In this document: piece after piece, positions 1,492 through 16,054 of the stretch
Layout of the letters: each line of letters begins with the position of its first letter
Numbering within the stretch: the stretch's first letter is position 1
Source of the DNA: Candidatus Omnitrophota bacterium
Lineage (GTDB): Bacteria > Hinthialibacterota > Hinthialibacteria > Hinthialibacterales > JAKPRU01
DNA length: 16,054 bases
Direction: 5' to 3'
NCBI GenBank assembly: GCA_029570205.1
Contig: JAKQSI010000083.1
Span: 1-16,054, forward strand
The notes under the pieces: generated by a model
What the model was told of the DNA's origin: nothing
Databases searched by the model: none
What the model saw: only the letters and a program-made list of their open reading frames with translations
Position numbers and translations under genes: made by a program

Positions 1492-1515
1492 GAAGGTTCT
1501 CCTTAAACCGGCATC

Positions 1516-1538
1516 ACAGGCTGGAAGCCTGTACCACC
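1516..1538 (+). repeat. Hairpin plus CCACC element
   Basis: Inverted repeat ACAGGCT-GGA-AGCCTGT (1516-1532), then one base and CCACC (1534-1538). The build matches the elements at 1586-1607 and 4897-4921: a short perfect stem, a short loop, then CCACC within two bases. Confidence 0.55.
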
Positions 1539-1558
1539 CGAATCATCTCTCACTCCAA

Positions 1559-1578
1559 CCCTCTCCTGAGGGAGAGGG
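1559..1578. repeat. REP-like CT-rich palindrome
   Basis: Perfect 8-bp inverted repeat CCCTCTCC with loop TGAG and GGAGAGGG, preceded by CAA. Palindromes of this CT-rich type are scattered between genes in many bacteria. A related one with a 10-bp stem sits inside the glycosyltransferase gene at 11898-11919. Confidence 0.6.
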
Positions 1579-1585
1579 AGAATAG

Positions 1586-1607
1586 GGTGGCGCCGGCATC
1601 TTGCCGG
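1586..1607 (-). repeat. Hairpin plus CCACC element, minus orientation
   Basis: CCGGC-ATCTT-GCCGG (1593-1607) is a perfect 5-bp stem. Read on the minus strand it is followed by two bases and CCACC (GGTGG at 1586-1590 on the plus strand). The loop core is shared with the leader hairpin at 3884-3901, so these two look like copies of one element. Confidence 0.5.
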
Positions 1608-1655
1608 TGGTTTCTCCAAAACGGCAATCCATCAAGTCGATTCGGTTACGGGACA

Positions 1656-2069
1656 CTATGATTTCACCACGCCGATGGTGAGAAGGATATTCGCGTAAGT
1701 GCGTTCCTCACCGGTGGCGATGGCCAGGCAGACTTCCGGCGATTCCGCCGCTTCATAGAACGCGAATCGATCCCGGTGCTGAAGTTCGATATCGGGAAGC
1801 AGTTTGCTGAACTCTGCGAAAATCTTCGGCTCGTGATCCGGGGGAGCCATCACCTCGGCCGCCTCAACGGGGATTTCGGTCAGAATAGTCTCCAGAACAT
1901 TCGTAACCGTGGGCAATCCGGGTCGGAGGTTGAGATACACCAGATCGGCGTTCGGCCCGGAGCGTGTACTCAAGGGATAGTTGCCATCGGCAATGAGTAC
2001 CTTCGCTCCGTGCCCGGCCCCGGCAAGAGCGGCAGAGATATGCGGGTGAATGAGTTCCGACTTGAGCAT
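1656..2069 (-). CDS. RbsD/FucU family sugar pyranase/mutarotase
   Basis: This 137-residue protein covers the whole family length. Members interconvert anomeric or ring forms of monosaccharides (ribose pyranose/furanose for RbsD, fucose anomers for FucU) and act in the cytoplasm as ring-shaped oligomers. His20 in AGHGAK and Asp28 in IADGNYP occupy the positions of the family's conserved active-site His and Asp. RFAFYE (101-106) and GEERTYANILL (120-130) are closer to FucU than to RbsD. The ATG at 2069 has AGGAG eight bases upstream, inside the end of the transketolase gene, and only two bases separate that gene's stop from this start. The two are therefore very probably translated from one mRNA. 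The position suggests it feeds a sugar in the right ring form to the neighbouring enzymes. Whether the substrate is ribose, fucose or another sugar is unknown. Confidence 0.9.
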   Translation of the reverse strand: MLKSELIHPHISAALAGAGHGAKVLIADGNYPLSTRSGPNADLVYLNLRPGLPTVTNVLETILTEIPVEAAEVMAPPDHEPKIFAEFSKLLPDIELQHRDRFAFYEAAESPEVCLAIATGEERTYANILLTIGVVKS

Positions 2070-2071
2070 GG

Positions 2072-3001
2072 CTACTTCTCCTGCACAAACGCGGCGGCTT
2101 GTCGTGCAATGCCCGCCGCATCGAGTTCGTATTTTGCATAGAGTTCCTCGGGATCGCCGGATTCTCCGAACTTATCGAGCAATCCCCAGCGACGAACGGG
2201 TACGGGGTGCGTTTCACAGACCGCCTCCGCCACGGCGCTACCCATTCCGCCCATGATATTGTGATCTTCCACGGTGAAAATACGCCCGGTCTCTTTTGCG
2301 CACCGCGCAACAAGGTCCTTGTCAATGGGTTTGATCGTGTGGATATTCACCACGCGGGCACGGATTCCCTTTTCCTGAAGGACCTTCCCGGCCTCCAGGG
2401 CTTCGGCGACCGTGGAGCCGGTAGCCATGATGGTCAGGTCTTTGCCATCCGCCAGAACAACCCCTTTTCCGACCTGGAAACGGTAATCCGGGCTGTTGAT
2501 ATCGGGGAGTTTCTGGCGTGTCAGGCGGATGTAAGAATAACCGTTGTGTTCCGCCATGAATGTGACAGCCTGTTTCGTTTCAAGTTCATCGCACGGCTGA
2601 AGGACAATCATGCCCGGCAGAGCGCGCATGAGGGCCAGGTCTTCCAGGCCCATCTGGCTGTTGCCGTCCTCTCCGATCCCGATTCCCGCGTGAGTTCCGA
2701 CGATGCGGACAGGGGCGTTTGAATAGGCCACCGACATGCGGATGGTTTCGTATCGCCCAGTCAGGAAACACGCAAAACTGCACGCAAACGGTTTCTTGCC
2801 AGCGAGGGCCAGCCCGGCAGCGATGCCGACCATGTTGGATTCCGCAATCCCGCACTCAAAAAACCGATCCGGGAACTTTTTGGCAAACAGAATGCTCATT
2901 GTGGATTTCGACAGGTCCGCGTCGAGAACGACAATCTTCTCATCCTTTTCGCCCAGTTCGGCAAGGGTTTCGCCGAATGCCAATCGTGATGCTTTCGCCA
3001 T
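2072..3001 (-). CDS. Transketolase, C-terminal subunit
   Basis: A 309-residue protein carrying the pyrimidine-binding and C-terminal domains of transketolase. With its partner it would transfer two-carbon ketol units between sugar phosphates in the non-oxidative pentose phosphate pathway. ECGIAESNMVGIAAGLA (49-65) contains Glu54, the conserved glutamate that activates the thiamine diphosphate pyrimidine. The GTHAGIGIGEDG stretch (102-113) is typical of transketolase and DXS-like C halves. I chose the ATG at 3001, giving an N-terminus MAKASRLAFG, because AAGGAG lies seven bases upstream. The frame stays open to 3094, but that extension is low-complexity and overlaps the N-half gene. It starts 26 bp after the N-half gene stops. 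Splitting transketolase into two adjacent genes is common in archaea and in many uncultured bacteria. Confidence 0.95.
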   Translation of the reverse strand: MAKASRLAFGETLAELGEKDEKIVVLDADLSKSTMSILFAKKFPDRFFECGIAESNMVGIAAGLALAGKKPFACSFACFLTGRYETIRMSVAYSNAPVRIVGTHAGIGIGEDGNSQMGLEDLALMRALPGMIVLQPCDELETKQAVTFMAEHNGYSYIRLTRQKLPDINSPDYRFQVGKGVVLADGKDLTIMATGSTVAEALEAGKVLQEKGIRARVVNIHTIKPIDKDLVARCAKETGRIFTVEDHNIMGGMGSAVAEAVCETHPVPVRRWGLLDKFGESGDPEELYAKYELDAAGIARQAAAFVQEK

Positions 3002-3027
3002 ATTCAGAGTCTCCTTGATCGTCGTGT

Positions 3028-3846
3028 TCAGTTCGCGCCCAATTCCGCGAGCGCTTTGGCGGCCTCTTCTGCGTTGGGGGCCTTGCCGTGCCAATCCACC
3101 ACATTCTCCATGAACGAAACCCCTTTGCCTTTAACGGTATCGGCAAGGATCAAGGTGGGCTGGTTTTTGGTTTCGGCGGCTTCTTTCAGGGCGCCGAGGA
3201 TTTGTTCGAAATCATGCCCATTGATCGGAATGACATGCCAGCCGAAACTGACCCATTTGTCCTTGATGGGTTCGAGCGGCATAACATCTTTCACATATCC
3301 GTCTATCTGGGCCTTATTGTAATCCAGAATGGCGCAAAGGGTGTCCGCTTTGAACTTCGGCGACGCCATGGCGGCCTCCCAGACCTGGCCTTCCTGTGTT
3401 TCGCCATCACCCATCAGGCAATAAACGCGAAACGGCGAACCGCCCATTTTGCTTGCGAGGGCCATCCCAAGCGCGACCGAGAGTCCCTGGCCGAGCGATC
3501 CGGTACAGGCTTCCAGGCAAGGCATCCTGTTCCGGTCCGGGTGTCCCTGAAGCGGGCTGCCGGTTTTCCGCAGGGTCAGCAAATCCTCGCGCGGGAAATA
3601 GCCCGCCTCGGCCAACGCCGCATACCAGACGGGAATGGCATGTCCCTTGGAGAGAATAAAGCGGTCTCGATGAGGCCAGTCGTGACGTTTGGGATTATGC
3701 CGCATTACGGCAAACAGCAGGGCGGTCACCAGGTCGGCAGCGGACAGCGAACCGCCCGGATGCCCGGAACCGGCCTCCGCAAGCATCCGAATCACATCAA
3801 TGCGGATTTTCCCGGCAATTTCTTTCAATTCAGCAATTTCCGGCAT
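3028..3846 (-). CDS. Transketolase, N-terminal (thiamine diphosphate-binding) subunit
   Basis: A 272-residue protein forming the diphosphate-binding half of a split transketolase. SGHPGGSLSAADL (27-39), SKGHA (66-70), QGHPD (100-104) and GSLGQG (116-121) are standard transketolase motifs. The thiamine diphosphate/Mg signature runs from GDGETQEG (147-154) to DYNKAQIDG (175-183), with Asn177 the expected metal ligand. Residues His29, His69 and His102 correspond to active-site histidines of the family. The ATG at 3846 is preceded by a weak AGGA and by a 5' leader that holds a hairpin and a near-consensus promoter (3916-3943). It is the first gene of the minus-strand sugar cluster. Such pairs may serve the central pentose pathway or a dedicated sugar catabolic route. 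The neighbouring mutarotase and dehydrogenase lean towards the latter, as an inference. Confidence 0.95.
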   Translation of the reverse strand: MPEIAELKEIAGKIRIDVIRMLAEAGSGHPGGSLSAADLVTALLFAVMRHNPKRHDWPHRDRFILSKGHAIPVWYAALAEAGYFPREDLLTLRKTGSPLQGHPDRNRMPCLEACTGSLGQGLSVALGMALASKMGGSPFRVYCLMGDGETQEGQVWEAAMASPKFKADTLCAILDYNKAQIDGYVKDVMPLEPIKDKWVSFGWHVIPINGHDFEQILGALKEAAETKNQPTLILADTVKGKGVSFMENVVDWHGKAPNAEEAAKALAELGAN

Positions 3847-3883
3847 AGTGTTTAATTCCTATTGGATTCTGTTGGTACAACTC

Positions 3884-3901
3884 TCCGGCCAAGATGCCGG
3901 A
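3884..3901 (-). promoter_or_regulatory. Leader hairpin of the transketolase cluster
   Basis: TCCGGC-CAAGAT-GCCGGA is a perfect 6-bp inverted repeat. It lies between the predicted transcription start (about 3909 on the minus strand) and the ATG at 3846, so it would form in the 5' untranslated RNA. Its loop core is shared with the hairpin at 1593-1607, so it may be a mobile hairpin copy and not a dedicated regulator. Confidence 0.45.
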
Positions 3902-3915
3902 TGGATGAATTCTTG

Positions 3916-3943
3916 ATTATAGGCGTTGTCCCCCGGATGGCAA
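3916..3943 (-). promoter_or_regulatory. Sigma70-type promoter for the transketolase cluster
   Basis: Read on the minus strand: TTGCCA (-35, 3943-3938), a 16-base spacer, then a perfect TATAAT (-10, 3921-3916). It faces the transketolase genes and predicts a 5' leader of roughly 60 bases. Confidence 0.65.
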
Positions 3944-3973
3944 GGAATGGACCGTGGGGCTGTCGGGAGGCTG

Positions 3974-4528
3974 TCAGGATCGGCTGTCGCCGGGACTGAG
4001 CAGACGAAGTCCCTGCACGAAATACTGCCCCACACTAATCAGGGTCAGCACCGCGGCGATCACATTGATAATCAGAGAATAGGGAGCCGGGAAAGAAAAA
4101 ACCGCCGCCACCACCGCCGCGAACTGAAAACCCGTCGCCCATTTGCTGGTCCGTGTCGGCGCGGCCTCCACCCGCCCCAGAATCGTCGCCACCAAGGCCC
4201 ACCCGATCACCACCAGGATATCCTTGCTCACAACAATCATGGCCAGCCAGATCGGCAGCCGGTTGAAAATGGTTAGAAGAATAAAGGAGGTCAGCACAAA
4301 CAGCTTGTCCGCCAGCGGGTCCAAGAGTCCCCCCAGGGCGGTCACTTGGCCGTGACGTCGGGCAAAATATCCGTCCAGAAAGTCGCTCAGGAAGATCACC
4401 ACCAGGACAATTCGCGCCCATACAACAAACTCAGGCGCGCCCACTTGGCTGTAACTGTAATAGCAAAGCCAGAAAAAGCACGGAACCAGAAGAATCCGAC
4501 CCAACGACAAAGCATTTGCGATATTCAT
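3974..4528 (-). CDS. pgsA: CDP-diacylglycerol-glycerol-3-phosphate 3-phosphatidyltransferase
   Basis: Inner-membrane enzyme that makes phosphatidylglycerol phosphate from CDP-diacylglycerol and glycerol 3-phosphate, the committed step to phosphatidylglycerol and cardiolipin. The 184-residue length is normal. The complete CDP-alcohol phosphotransferase motif D-x2-D-G-x2-A-R-x8-G-x3-D-x3-D is present: Asp49, Asp52, Gly53, Ala56, Arg57, Gly66, Asp70 and Asp74. The N-terminus MNIANALSLGRILLVP matches the usual start of PgsA proteins. Several hydrophobic segments follow (about 34-48, 78-98, 101-118, 133-147 and 151-166). A related family member such as a cardiolipin or phosphatidylinositol-type synthase is possible, but PgsA fits best. 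A TACAAT hexamer (4547-4542) just upstream could be a -10 box, though its -35 match is poor. Confidence 0.93.
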   Translation of the reverse strand: MNIANALSLGRILLVPCFFWLCYYSYSQVGAPEFVVWARIVLVVIFLSDFLDGYFARRHGQVTALGGLLDPLADKLFVLTSFILLTIFNRLPIWLAMIVVSKDILVVIGWALVATILGRVEAAPTRTSKWATGFQFAAVVAAVFSFPAPYSLIINVIAAVLTLISVGQYFVQGLRLLSPGDSRS

Positions 4529-4636
4529 AATCTCTCTGGCAATTGTACCCGAATCTTCCTATCATCATAAGGTCGTTACCGAGTAGTCAGGTGTCTCGTT
4601 TTTTCCGGGAACCGCCGCATATCAGAGGATCCGTCC

Positions 4637-4852
4637 GTGAAAATCACCGTTCGTCAACTGGAGCGTTTCCTGGCAGGGGCTTGTACCTTCCTTCTGGTCA
4701 TTCTGTACTGTCAGCTGTTCATTCAAAGTTGCGGGGGACCATTCCCGGAACGGCTCCGAGGACCGTTCGCGAAACAAAGTTATACCCGACTGGGCGATCT
4801 CCCCGAAGACGAGCGGAATTATGTTCCCAATGTCGAACTTCCGGCAAAATGA
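4637..4852 (+). CDS. Small predicted single-span membrane protein
   Basis: A 71-residue product starting at a GTG, with AGAGGA (4624-4629) seven bases upstream, which is a credible ribosome-binding site. Residues about 12-30 (LAGACTFLLVILYCQLF and onward) form one hydrophobic span after a basic N-terminus, so an N-in, single-pass inner-membrane protein is likely. The remaining tail is polar with several charged residues and no recognised motif. I do not recognise a family. It is divergent from pgsA and is followed on the same strand by the repeat protein, with a tandem hairpin array between them. The small size and lack of a family leave real doubt that it is a gene. Confidence 0.5.
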   Translation: MKITVRQLERFLAGACTFLLVILYCQLFIQSCGGPFPERLRGPFAKQSYTRLGDLPEDERNYVPNVELPAK

Positions 4853-4896
4853 CCGGACATTTCCGATTCAATCACTTTTAAGAAAGATCGCCCATC

Positions 4897-4921
4897 GACA
4901 GGCACAGAGGCCTGTCCCACC
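4897..4921 (+). repeat. Hairpin plus CCACC element leading the 21-bp array
   Basis: GACAGGC-ACAGAG-GCCTGTC (4897-4916) is a perfect 7-bp stem with a 6-base loop, followed directly by CCACC, which is also the start of the first tandem unit. The stem and loop lengths equal those of the hairpin inside the 33-bp units at the window end, but the bases differ. Confidence 0.6.
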
Positions 4922-5012
4922 AGGGGGCCAGGCATCCCCACCAGTGGGCCAGGCATCCCCACCAGTGGGCCAGGCATCCCCACCAGTGGGCCAGGCGTCC
5001 CTGCCTGGCAAA
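4917..5012 (+). repeat. 21-bp tandem repeat with a full-length terminal unit
   Basis: Three units start at 4917, 4938 and 4959, each reading close to CCACCAGTGGGCCAGGCATC plus one C. The fourth, from 4980, continues into CCTGCCTGGCA, completing the hairpin GCCAGGC (4990-4996), loop GTCCCT, GCCTGGC (5003-5009). The 21-bp units are the 33-bp unit of 15611-16054 without its right hairpin arm. The last unit is close to the complete 33-bp form. The frame is open in the plus direction as a PPVGQAS repeat, but no start is likely to read it. Confidence 0.85.
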
Positions 5013-5072
5013 GAAGGCCGGGAAGCACACTTTCTTCACCCCATCACCGGCCCTGCCGGAGCAAGGCTCATA

Positions 5073-7085
5073 ATGACGGCGAAATCCGTTCTTTCCCTCT
5101 CGCGTGTTCCATCCGTCCTATTGGTCCTATTGGTCTCATTCGTCCCATTCTCCTACGCAGAATCGGAGTTACGCGATCCCTGGACCGATGCGATGGCATC
5201 GATAGGAAAAACTCCCGATGACCTGCGATTCGACCGATACGACTCCTCGCTTTTCGGCGGCGGGGACCTGCGACTGAGTTTCTTCGATCTTCTAATCAAT
5301 AATCCCCTCAAAGTCGAACCGTATTGCATTCGAAGCAAAGAGATTTACCTGGAAAAATCCGCTTCGCTCCATGATGCGCTGATGCTGATGAGCATTCGAG
5401 TCGATGAAGGGGTGCGGCGTGGATTGTATTTCAACGACCTGGAAGAGGTTGAAAAGACTGCCGAAGAACCCGATGGCATTCTTGTGGCTTTGGACACGCT
5501 CTATAAGCAATACGGGAAACATATTCCCGCAAGCCTTCGGCGCGAAATTCGGAAATGGTCCGCAGAGGCACACCCGGAACTTGTGAAATGCCTGGCCCTG
5601 CTTCTGGGCGCATCGGCGCAGGGACTGGCCTGGCACAAAATGGCGTTTCAGCGCATCGACCGTGACAATCTCGAAAAACTCTCGGATCGCCTGCACACCT
5701 TGCCGCTCCTAGAGGAAGGCGACATGGATTGGGATGTGTACCGGCTCATCCGCGAAGTCGATTACAAGTTCCTCTATGCGGGGGCGCTGGACATCTCGCA
5801 GGCAGTGGACCGCGCAACGGCACGGTTGCTTTCCGCCTCGGATGAGTTATACACTCCGCCGCTTCGCCTCAAGACTATTCTCGGCGAAATCCAAATCGGC
5901 ACAACCGGCGATGATACCTTTGAAAGCAAGAAGCATCTCTTCCTTACAATAGACTGGGGTGGGAATGACACCTATTTCAATGCGGCATCTTCGCGCCCGC
6001 CCGTTTATCCCCTCGGCATCACAATCGACCTGAAAGGCAATGACATCTATACCGGAAACGGATCTGCCGGGGCGGGAATCCAGGGATACGGCTTTCTGGT
6101 GGACTCCGATGGAGACGACCGGTATGAAGCGGAGGAACTCGGACAGGGCTGCGGGGTGTTCGGAGTGGGTGCGATTCTGGACGCCGGCGGGGACGACACA
6201 TATCAATCCGTTACCCTGGCGCAGGGGTCCGGGCAATTCGGATTGGGTTTGCTGATAGACCGGCGAGGAAACGACACCTATTCCACCTATCGCCTGTCAC
6301 AGGGCTACGGGTTCACGAAAGGCTGCGGGCTGTTGATGGATTGCGACGGAGATGACCGTTACATTGCCGACGATACGGATATCCGGTTCCCATCTTCGCA
6401 AACAGGAGAGCATAACGGCAATCTCTGCCAGGGGGCGGGGGCCGGGTTGCGCGGGGATTTGTGGCATGGTCACAGCCTGGGCGGGGGGATCGGGATATTG
6501 ATCGACGCGCAAGGGGATGACTGCTATCAGGGCGGTATATTCGTGCAGGGGGTAGCGTACTGGTATGCGGTGGGAATGCTGGTGGATGGAGCAGGAAAGG
6601 ATCTTTATGAGGGCGTATGGTACACACAAGGTGCGGGCGCTCATTTCGGGGCCGCGGCGCTCATCGATGAGTCCGGGGATGACCGATACACGGCATCCAT
6701 CAATGTGGCACAAGGCGGGGCGCACGATTTCTCGCTTGCCATGCTGGTGGATCGCGCGGGGAACGACACCTATCAGGCTCCCAATCTCAGTATGGGAGCC
6801 GCCAATGCAAATGCCATCGGCATTCTGCTCGATCGGAATGGAAATGACCGCTATGGAACAACCGGTTCCCTGACACTCGGCGCGGCACAGATCGGTGTGG
6901 ATCAACTGAGTTTTCGCGATTTTACGTTTTCGTTCGGACTTTTCATGGATCTGGGCGGCAGAGACTCTTACCCGCGCGCTCATCAGGGTGACAATCGGAT
7001 CTGGAACCAGCGGCAATGGGAGGCTCGTTCCTTCTTTGACAATGAGAATGGAATCGGCCTTGACGGGGAATATGCAAAACCCTGA
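5073..7085 (+). CDS. Secreted protein with about 13 G-[DN]-D-x-Y solenoid repeats
   Basis: Function unknown. The chosen ATG at 5073 gives 670 residues beginning with a clear signal peptide: a basic start, a hydrophobic core at about 12-26, and probable cleavage after SYA at 29. AAGG (5063-5066) lies upstream. The frame is open back to 4821, but that extension only translates the tandem repeat. Residues 30-270 form a mixed, probably helical domain with no motif I recognise. From about 275 to 640 a unit of some 24-28 residues recurs about 13 times. It reads hydrophobic-hydrophobic-D-x-x-G-[DN]-D-x-Y, then a Q-G-x-G turn and a G-hydrophobic-G run (for example 342-367 and 368-393). Two units (near 420-475 and 585-625) carry inserts. 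The regular Asp and Gly spacing suggests a beta-solenoid, possibly calcium-binding, exported to the periplasm or surface. It is not a standard RTX nonapeptide repeat. Confidence 0.9.
   Translation: MTAKSVLSLSRVPSVLLVLLVSFVPFSYAESELRDPWTDAMASIGKTPDDLRFDRYDSSLFGGGDLRLSFFDLLINNPLKVEPYCIRSKEIYLEKSASLHDALMLMSIRVDEGVRRGLYFNDLEEVEKTAEEPDGILVALDTLYKQYGKHIPASLRREIRKWSAEAHPELVKCLALLLGASAQGLAWHKMAFQRIDRDNLEKLSDRLHTLPLLEEGDMDWDVYRLIREVDYKFLYAGALDISQAVDRATARLLSASDELYTPPLRLKTILGEIQIGTTGDDTFESKKHLFLTIDWGGNDTYFNAASSRPPVYPLGITIDLKGNDIYTGNGSAGAGIQGYGFLVDSDGDDRYEAEELGQGCGVFGVGAILDAGGDDTYQSVTLAQGSGQFGLGLLIDRRGNDTYSTYRLSQGYGFTKGCGLLMDCDGDDRYIADDTDIRFPSSQTGEHNGNLCQGAGAGLRGDLWHGHSLGGGIGILIDAQGDDCYQGGIFVQGVAYWYAVGMLVDGAGKDLYEGVWYTQGAGAHFGAAALIDESGDDRYTASINVAQGGAHDFSLAMLVDRAGNDTYQAPNLSMGAANANAIGILLDRNGNDRYGTTGSLTLGAAQIGVDQLSFRDFTFSFGLFMDLGGRDSYPRAHQGDNRIWNQRQWEARSFFDNENGIGLDGEYAKP
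5895..6992 (+). repeat. Coding repeat region of the secreted solenoid protein
   Basis: Roughly 13 imperfect units of about 75-84 bp, each coding a D-x-x-G-[DN]-D-x-Y core. DNA copies have diverged while the protein core is kept. This points to old duplication under selection, not recent slippage. Confidence 0.75.
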
Positions 7086-12901: not shown

Positions 12902-13556
12902 CCAGCCAGGCCACCATCCTCGACCAACCGCCGTTCAACAACAGAAAACCATCGTACACCAACGGCACGGGACGAAGGAGTGCTTTGCCCGCAACCGACG
13001 GAATGTGCCCCAAAAACGAAAGAAGCCCGCCCGCCGGTCGAATCTCCTCGACCTCCAACCCCGCGCTTGCGCACAGATACCTCAAGCCATGGCAGGTGAA
13101 TCGGAAATAATCGTGAGGTTCATTATGGAGATAGGCAAGATGCGGCGCGGTCAAAATCAACATTCCACCCGGAAGAAGCACACGCGCGACTTCCCTCAAC
13201 GCCCTCGCGGGTTCGGGCACATGCTCCAGAACCTGTGAACAGAATACCGTATCGAAACACCCATCCGCAAACGGCAAGTCGAGAAGGGACCCCACCACCG
13301 AAGGCGCAGCCCGCTCAACCGTCACATCCAGGCTCACATACTCCGCCGCAAACGCCGACAAACGTGCTGCGTAGGCTTTCGATCCGGCTCCGGCGTCCAG
13401 CGCTCTTCCACGGACATATTTTTCAATCAGGGGTTTCAGCGCTCGAATTAAACTCGCCCGTGTCGGCGACAGTAGAAAATAGTCTTCTTTTCCCGTGGTT
13501 TCCCGGGCGATTGTCCGATCCCTGTCACGAATGCGATCATAGATGGATTTCGTCAT
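12834..13556 (-). CDS. Class I SAM-dependent methyltransferase
   Basis: A 240-residue cytoplasmic protein of the methyltransferase 11 type. Motif I, ALDAGAGSKAY (52-62), binds S-adenosylmethionine. The acidic residue ending the second strand is in SLDVT (75-79), and CFDTVFCSQVLEHVPEPARALRE (100-122) and LLPGGMLILTAPH (127-139) are the standard later motifs. The frame is open to 13718, but the ATG at 13556 is preferred because it forms an ATGA overlap with the stop of the GT4 gene, implying coupled translation, and because homologous proteins normally begin near such a residue. NEPHDYFRFT (145-154) is seen in methyltransferases of polysaccharide clusters. It may methylate a sugar or a lipid-linked glycan, but the acceptor is unknown. 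Its 3' end overlaps the start of the GT-C gene. Confidence 0.9.
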   Translation of the reverse strand: MTKSIYDRIRDRDRTIARETTGKEDYFLLSPTRASLIRALKPLIEKYVRGRALDAGAGSKAYAARLSAFAAEYVSLDVTVERAAPSVVGSLLDLPFADGCFDTVFCSQVLEHVPEPARALREVARVLLPGGMLILTAPHLAYLHNEPHDYFRFTCHGLRYLCASAGLEVEEIRPAGGLLSFLGHIPSVAGKALLRPVPLVYDGFLLLNGGWSRMVAWLDERIERRKIFALNYIVVARKSG

Positions 13557-14713
13557 TTGCCGACAATCCGGCGAAACAAATGGAGGTATTGTTCTGCCAC
13601 AGAAGACCAGGACCGGCCTTCCGCAATCCTGCGGGATGTCGCTCCCCATTGCCCCCAACGCCCCGGTGTGTCCAGCATCCTCACCAAAGCGGAACGCAGT
13701 GCCGCCACATCGCCGCACGGGACTACCTCACCGTTGTTCTGTACGAGATCCTGCGCGCCCCCTGTGTCGCTCAGAAGGACCGGCAAACCGCAAGCCATCG
13801 CCTCCAGCGCCGCGTTCGACATCCCTTCCGCCAATGACGGCAGGATGAACAGGTCGCATTCCGGCAAAGTCCGCGCAATCCAGTCGCGGTCACGGTCCCC
13901 CGCGAACTCCACACGGTTATCGATCCCCGATTTCGTTACCAGTGTGGATAATGCGGGCTTTTCCGGACCATCCCCGATGACCAGGAGCCGCCAGGGTCTG
14001 TCCTGCAACTGCCCCAGTGCGGTGATCAGCAAATCAACTCCTTTGCGCGGAATCAACCGGGCCACCGTAACCAATACCGGCGCATCCCCCGGAGAGTGCG
14101 GCTTCGGAACAAAACAATTTGTGTCGACCCCATTCGGGATCACCTGAATGGGCAAATCGCCAAATGCTTTCCCCGCCAGTCTTCGCAATCCCTCGCTGTT
14201 TGCCACAACCGCCGCTGCGGACTCCCAGCTGCGACGCACCAGCGGACGCAGCAACCTGTGATCCAATGTGAACCGCTGATTGTAGCCGGGAACATCCGAA
14301 CCCCGCAATGAAATCACGTATGGCATTCGTTTCCGCAGCCGGTATGCGACCAGCCCGGATGGAATGCCGAAAAACGCGTGGCAGATATCGTAAGGCTCTC
14401 GTCGCAACTCCCGTTTTGTCTCCCCCCACGCCCCCAGAAGATACCGCAAAACCTCGCTTCGACGCCAGAAGCGAAAGTCCCTCTTTCCCACCGGAATGCG
14501 AAGGATTCGGAAATTCGACTGGGGGTTTAATTCCTCTTTCTGCTTCCCTGTTCCGGATGTGATGAGTAAAACACGACATCCGGCGTCCCGGACAATTTCA
14601 CGCAGAATGGCCTCGTGGGCGGTTGCTCCCCCGCCGCCGATGGGTGGATATTCGTAATTGAGTGCAAGAATGGACAGGTTGGAGAATTTGTCTGTGGAGG
14701 GGTTGCCGTTCAT
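13553..14713 (-). CDS. Glycosyltransferase family 4 (GT-B fold)
   Basis: A 386-residue cytoplasmic or membrane-associated retaining glycosyltransferase. It has the N-terminal acceptor domain loop YPPIGGGGATAHEA (22-35), then VIPNGVD (191-197) at the domain hinge and VARLIPRKGVDLLI (217-230), where Arg and Lys bind the nucleotide-sugar phosphates. The E-x7-E motif is in AEGMSNAALEAMACGLPVL (295-313), with Glu296 and Glu304. It would transfer a sugar from a nucleotide donor during surface polysaccharide or lipid-linked glycan assembly; donor and acceptor are not readable from sequence. It begins 42 bp after the zapA stop, without a strong ribosome-binding site, and ends in a 4-bp overlap with the methyltransferase gene. 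Confidence 0.93.
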   Translation of the reverse strand: MNGNPSTDKFSNLSILALNYEYPPIGGGGATAHEAILREIVRDAGCRVLLITSGTGKQKEELNPQSNFRILRIPVGKRDFRFWRRSEVLRYLLGAWGETKRELRREPYDICHAFFGIPSGLVAYRLRKRMPYVISLRGSDVPGYNQRFTLDHRLLRPLVRRSWESAAAVVANSEGLRRLAGKAFGDLPIQVIPNGVDTNCFVPKPHSPGDAPVLVTVARLIPRKGVDLLITALGQLQDRPWRLLVIGDGPEKPALSTLVTKSGIDNRVEFAGDRDRDWIARTLPECDLFILPSLAEGMSNAALEAMACGLPVLLSDTGGAQDLVQNNGEVVPCGDVAALRSALVRMLDTPGRWGQWGATSRRIAEGRSWSSVAEQYLHLFRRIVGK

Positions 14714-15368: not shown

Positions 15369-15610
15369 CGAAATTGATAACCTTCCAGGAATTCAGGGTT
15401 TAATTGCAATTTTCATACTCCCGGGAAAGTCCGCCTGCAACCGCCATTGCGAACTGATACCAAAATTGGGCGCTTCAATGAGACTTCTCCCTTCGGTCAA
15501 AATGACAGACCTGTTGTCATTCCGAACGAATGTGAGGAATCTCGGCAAGCCTGAGATCGCAACGTCGCAGCCCTTCGCGAACTCCGGGCTGTTCCTCCTG
15601 ACAAAGCCCG
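15369..15610. other. Intergenic region upstream of the zapB-like gene
   Basis: A 242-bp stretch with no gene seen. Near the zapB-like gene it has a perfect palindrome AATTGCAATT (15402-15411) and a weak promoter-like pair on the minus strand: TTGCAG (15440-15435), 17 bases, TATGAA (15417-15412). Further up is a long imperfect inverted repeat (15480-15543) and a CAGCCC/GGGCTG pair (about 15568-15591). The 33-bp array follows. Confidence 0.5.
15480..15543. repeat. Long imperfect inverted repeat
   Basis: The left arm (15480-15507, GAGACTTCTCCC to AATGACA) and right arm (15515-15543, TGTCATTCCGAA to GGAATCTC) pair over about 28 bases with several mismatches, around a 7-base centre. Sequences of the TGTCATTCCGA-CGA-GAGGAATCTC kind are familiar as dispersed intergenic repeats in many bacterial genomes. 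This looks like one such two-armed copy. Confidence 0.65.
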
Positions 15611-16054
15611 CCCACCAGTAGGCCAGGCGTCTCTGCCTGGCAGCCCACCAGTAGGCCAGGCGTCTCTGCCTGGCAGCCCACCAGTAGGCCAGGCGTCTCT
15701 GCCTGGCAGCCCACCAGTAGGCCAAGGGTCTCTGCCTGCCCGCCCACCAGTAGGCCAGGCGTCCCTGCCTGGCACCCCACCAGTAGGCCAGGCGTCTCTG
15801 CCTGGCAGCCCACCAGTAGGCCAGACGTCTCTGCCTGGCAGCCCACCAGTAGGCCAGACGTCTCTGCCTGGCAGCCCACCAGTAGGCCAGGCGTCTCTGC
15901 CTGGCAGCCCACCAATAGGCCAGGCGTCTCTGCCTGCCCGCCCACCAGTAGGCCAGGCGTCTCTGCCTGGCAGCCCACCAGTAGGCCAGGCGTCTCTGCC
16001 TGGCAGCCCACCAGTAGGCCAGGCGTCTCTGCCTGGCAGCCCACCAGTAGGCCA
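15611..16054. repeat. 33-bp tandem hairpin array, continuing past the window end
   Basis: Thirteen contiguous 33-bp units start at 15611, 15644, 15677 and so on to 16007, with a 15-bp partial unit at 16040-16054. Each typical unit contains CCCACCAGTAGGCCAGGC, then GTCTCT, then GCCTGGCAG, so GCCAGGC and GCCTGGC form a 7-bp stem with a 6-base loop. Variants are few. Units 4 and 10 end in GCCTGCCCG, units 7 and 8 have CCAGACG, and unit 5 has GTCCCT. There are no unique spacers. Because 33 is a multiple of three, the three minus frames and two of the three plus frames stay open throughout. Confidence 0.95.

Follow-up and report, generated by a model that had tools for sequence, protein, structure and literature searches.

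The window, by which we mean the whole stretch of 16,054 nucleotides analysed here, carries three intergenic clusters of short hairpin elements (1515-1609, 4897-5009 and 15617-16054), which together comprise 16 well-matching REP copies (E < 1e-4 with a model built on 20 variants; Table 1). The first-pass annotation had pointed to three hairpins with CCACC 0-2 bases away, and all three were recovered where it had placed them, namely at 1516-1538 (stem 7, loop 3), on the minus strand at 1586-1607 (stem 6, loop 3) and at 4897-4921 (stem 7, loop 6). On the complementary strand, CCACC reads GGTGG, and the element there consists of GTGG or GTAG followed directly by the hairpin; the conserved block is better read as a GTGG/GTAG foot at the 5' side. 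The stems are in fact 8 bp long and enclose a TCY triloop, and all types share the scheme foot, 8 bp, TCC or TCT, 8 bp. In the main type (type I), to which the 4897-4921 copy and the array at the end of the window belong, a single bulged T follows the first 3' pair. The 4897-4921 copy has the stem GACAGGCC/G(T)GCCTGTC with the bulged T and the loop TCT. A search of the window against Rfam did not match any family.

Table 1. Hairpin elements and associated repeats in the window
Feature	Coordinates	Strand	Sequence or form	Remarks
REP-A	1515..1538	-	GGTGG-TACAGGCT-TCC-AGCCTGTG	34.7 bits
REP-A head	1534-1537	-	GTGG	read on minus strand
Doublet spacer	1539..1585	.	CCCTCTCC...GGAGAGGG	contains this inverted repeat
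REP-B	1586..1609	+	GGTGGCGCCGGCATCTTGCCGG	32.6 bits; second half of doublet
Possible decayed, headless REP-B	3884..3901	-		10.4 bits, E 0.43: not significant
Outer interspersed repeat	4879..5070	+	TAAGAAA...TTTCTTCACCCCATCACCGGCCCTGCCGG	encloses type I doublet
Type I REP	4897..4921	-	GGTGGGACAGGCCTCTGTGCCTGTC	41.6 bits
Three 21-bp tandem units, family D2	4917..4984	+	CCCACCAGTGGGCCAGGCATC	head and 5' arm, without 3' arm
Type I REP, partner	4985..5009	+	GTGGGCCAGGCGTCCCTGCCTGGC	41.0 bits; faces 4897-4921 copy
Type I REP tandem array	15611..16054	+	CCCACCAGTAGG-CCAGGCGTCTCTGCCTGG-CAG	period 33 bp

In the first cluster, two unlike REPs, REP-A and REP-B, form a head-to-head doublet. REP-A is also present in many of the about 80 genome stretches from which REP surroundings were sampled, and the REP-A/REP-B doublet recurs with other spacers in five of them (L007, L101, L118, L120 and L123). 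The terminal array contains 12 copies scoring 25-40 bits. That its units and those at 4917-5012 hold the same pieces, a stem-loop and CCACC, had been noticed before and was confirmed. The terminal array reaches the end of its contig, C108, at position 16054, and contigs C14, C16 and C19 of the same genome (G000) likewise end within REP arrays. Arrays therefore seem to break the assembly, which makes the copy numbers given below lower bounds. A different interspersed repeat (CTTCGGTCAAAATGACAG...TGTCATTCCGAACGAATGTGAGGAATCT) lies directly before the array at 15440-15611, and a similar stretch precedes REPs in locus L142. The product of the gene at 5073-7085 is probably secreted; it contains GNDTY-like motifs that are repeated, and it has no Pfam match.

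Are the hairpins simply a product of chance in a GC-rich genome? A scan of the window for a hairpin with CCACC gave four matches, the fourth of which (14473-14492, inside the gene 13553-14713) is probably fortuitous. After removal of both arrays, which also takes away the CCACC of the 4897 copy and leaves the 14473 match among those counted, three matches remained versus 0.48 +/- 0.70 in dinucleotide shuffles. Three to four matches where about 0.5 are expected constitute a modest excess when the window is taken by itself. Genome-wide, the excess is decisive. In the genome of 4.39 Mb, 555 copies of the pattern GTRGGNCAGGCN6GCCTGNC were counted, along with 98 of ACAGGCN(3-12)GCCTGTNCCACC and 60 of the joint REP-A/REP-B pattern, and the reversed control pattern was found 0 times in each case. 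A chance origin is thereby refuted. A search of the genomes with a covariance model, in which 150 first-look candidates per genome were scored, returned at least 180 matches in the genome of origin, a figure that is therefore not a copy number. In the suggested comparison of positions between and within genes, which used simple codon-usage gene calls, 22 of the 23 sampled REP clusters proved intergenic, in surroundings where coding sequence makes up 80% of the remaining bases. The single genic cluster is an array that may itself create the open frame.

The earlier observation that stems change while pairing is kept was borne out by abundant compensatory changes, which were found at stem positions 1, 2, 4 and 8. 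The second stem pair varies freely, using A-T, C-G, T-A and G-C, and its two bases match each other in 285 of 303 copies, whereas 142 would be expected if the two sides were independent. The loop-closing pair alternates between G-C and C-G and is complementary in 295 of 298 copies (174 expected). At both pairs, covariation also holds in two further genomes of the genus, G001 and G002. A set of 411 copies was selected solely on the foot, the loop and a portion of the 5' arm, ignoring the 3' arm; pairing was complete at all 8 stem positions in 340 of these and extended over at least 7 positions in 390. Among 93 distinct sequences, 44 were fully paired, compared to a mean of 12.8 and a maximum of 22 in 1000 reshufflings of the 3' arms. 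An alignment of 20 rows gave a covariation score of 0.543; shuffling lowered it to 0.100 and sliding to 0.101 or less. As these rows had been picked among well-paired variants, the weight rests on the tests with 303, 411 and 93 sequences.

The first-pass annotation had also proposed a REP-type transposase, and a RAYT gene was indeed found within a nest of the same hairpins. Y1_Tnp genes are present on contigs C89, C48 and C51 of the genome, and a further RAYT-like gene lies on C126. The C89 and C48 proteins score 86.6 and 96.4 bits, respectively, both above the cut-off of 80 for the NCBIfam REP-associated tyrosine transposase. The C89 protein carries a HuH motif (residue 81), WQ (120) and the tyrosine of YISKNP (141), and aligns weakly (E 0.033) with the solved TnpA-REP 4er8. 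Its gene sits amid about 20 near-identical copies of GTAGGACAGGCCTCCGTGCCTGTC that form arrays on both sides, each array including an inverted GTAGGTCAGGCGTCTCTGCCTGAC copy. These repeats are the type I REPs of the window: the 4897-4921 copy is identical to the REP of the C89 nest save for GTAG/GTGG and TCC/TCT. The RAYT gene is thus flanked by its own REPs. No RAYT adjoining REP-A/REP-B was found in the three draft genomes of the genus; it is possible that these elements are served by the same RAYT, or that a dedicated one has been lost or is missing from the assembly. Elsewhere in the genome, a second RAYT gene (C48, 1240-2260 in L033) lies within a nest of GGAG-footed repeats (GGAGTGCGGGAGCGTCAGCTCCCGC), and an IS200-type transposase gene (C51, 900-2100 in L031) follows long repeats with hairpins such as CCACCGTTTCAACGGTGG and CCCGGCATTGAAATGCCGGG. 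At least three separate RAYT-repeat nests were counted in this genome.

The type I doublet of the window is enclosed by an outer repeat of about 200 bp, and the same frame surrounds REP doublets in L014, L015, L017, L020, L101 and L132. Type I doublets often lie within this conserved frame (TAAGAAA...TTTCTTCACCC), as would be expected if the hairpins were passengers of a larger MITE moved by another kind of transposase. Many REPs are, however, located outside the frame, the frame may carry REP-A/B or no REP, and the RAYT gene is flanked by REPs and not by the frame. We therefore regard the passenger model as very improbable. In the window (4879-5070) and in L007, L014 and L101, the frame holds, at one and the same position, REP doublet I, REP doublet II or a REP-free insert. 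An empty frame, with TAAGAAA no more than 30 nt from TTTCTT, was searched for and not found.

Comparison with related genomes revealed a narrow distribution. Within the genus, for which three genomes were searched, the type I pattern was counted 555 times (G000), 159 times and 59 times (G001); it was absent from six genomes of other members of the order, and 5 and 9 copies were present in two genomes of the same class. REP-A/REP-B numbered 60 (G000), 63 (G001) and 26 (G002). In G002, a second species of the genus, a RAYT 90% identical to the C89 gene lies between the same neighbours and is surrounded by 5 copies of the REP pattern versus 22 in the corresponding stretch of G000. From the shared neighbours and the differing counts, the RAYT appears to have been passed on at a fixed position, with the number of REPs changing around it. 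Although type I (59 copies) and REP-A/B (63 copies) are both present, a RAYT was not found in the 810 contigs of G001, a third species, where an assembly gap or loss could be responsible. At two REP sites of the window, REPs are missing in G001. The interval between the rbsD-like and mocA-like genes carries a doublet common to G000 and G002 and none in G001. Upstream of the gene corresponding to 5073-7085, G001 has no REPs and G002 has REPs at a contig end. The REP-free sites are too diverged for exact insertion junctions.

These data also bear on the idea that the hairpins are non-mobile regulatory elements of the host, i.e. terminators, mRNA stabilisers or protein-binding sites under selection for RNA structure. 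E. coli REPs have such roles, and the intergenic position and kept pairing would agree with them. On the other hand, non-mobile elements would account poorly for nests around a RAYT gene, tandem arrays, conservation of the unpaired head, or copies that are restricted to a clade and present or absent at orthologous sites; the lack of an Rfam match in the window points in the same direction. We consider a purely regulatory origin highly unlikely, and selection on host RNA or DNA structure, which had been put forward earlier, is not needed to account for the data. The companion proposal of a mobile hairpin read by a REP-type transposase is supported, with the RAYT itself being the presumed agent of movement.

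We conclude with high confidence that the elements are REPs, non-autonomous mobile repeats that have most likely been spread by the C89 RAYT, a Y1 HuH transposase of the TnpA-REP type. The enzyme would most likely recognise foot and hairpin in single-stranded DNA, cut at the foot and rejoin the ends. Pairs of REPs would be excised or copied and then inserted elsewhere, and arrays may grow through slippage, recombination or repeated insertion. If the enzyme reads foot, loop and pairing more than the sequence of the stem, stems would be able to drift by paired substitutions.

With regard to the orientation of the heads, the doublets differ from REPINs, as the heads face inward here, 2 to about 50 nt apart. 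In the Pseudomonas REPINs (PMC3116915), the unit likewise consists of two inverted REPs, and a RAYT is presumed to serve it. The canonical definition of a REP, GTAG or GTGG at 0-2 nt from a paired stem with a loop of 2-5 nt (PMC6006769), applies to the elements described here: the foot, GTAG in 212 and GTGG in 91 of 303 copies, stands 0-2 nt 5' of a short GC-rich stem of 8 bp with the triloop TCY, copies are numerous and chiefly located between genes, and dimers and clusters in alternating orientation are formed. According to PMC2817692, PMC3733652 and PMC6006769, features shared with GTAG-family REPs and REPtrons are the 5' GT[AG]G foot, a stem of 7-8 bp, a loop of 3, hundreds of intergenic copies, head-to-head dimers and clusters, and a RAYT within a nest of its own repeats, whereas the TCC/TCT triloop, the bulged T in the main type and the heterodimers of two stem sequences set the present elements apart. 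Head-to-head dimers 1-2 bp apart, Opitutus GTGG heads, clusters in tandem and REPs lying within RAYT genes have already been described (PMC6006769 and PMC3733652). With respect to heads and dimer spacing, the latter source reports for Opitutus terrae (Verrucomicrobia) a GTGG head, which also occurs here, in most GTAG-20 copies, and GTAG-17 head-to-head dimers 1-2 bp apart, like the type I doublets (CCAC-CA-GTGG). Our literature search did not reveal a description of REPs in Omnitrophota. We are dealing with a new REP family of an already known kind.

The neighbourhoods of 56 RAYT relatives from many phyla were inspected for GTRG- or GGAG-footed hairpins of at least 7 bp. Such a hairpin was present within 600 nt of the gene in 43 cases. 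In total, 132 hairpins were found, compared to 1.3 in shuffled sequence and 21 in stretches of equal length 1.5-2.1 kb away. Although no particular loop had been required in the search, 68 of the loops are TCC and 31 are TCT, and the hairpins comprise 58 distinct foot-plus-stem sequences. In a quick tree, which serves as a hint only in view of its long, poorly extracted rows (L039, L170 and L176), RAYTs with GGAG feet mostly group together. We tentatively propose, at somewhat less than even odds, that what RAYTs recognise in this branch is a fixed code of foot (GTRG, or GGAG in another clade) and TCY triloop, with the stem left free, so that one RAYT could serve several REP stems in a genome.

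The novelty of the system is modest and lies in a GTRG/GGAG head and a TCC/TCT triloop that are kept in relatives of many phyla while the stems vary. The findings extend RAYT/REP systems to an uncultured lineage, in which one genome holds several REP types and a mapped RAYT nest at a conserved chromosomal position. They also provide a clean data set on stem change under kept foot, loop and pairing, with which the features read by a RAYT become directly testable with short oligonucleotides. If the proposal is true, foot and loop, and not the stem, would define REP families across phyla.
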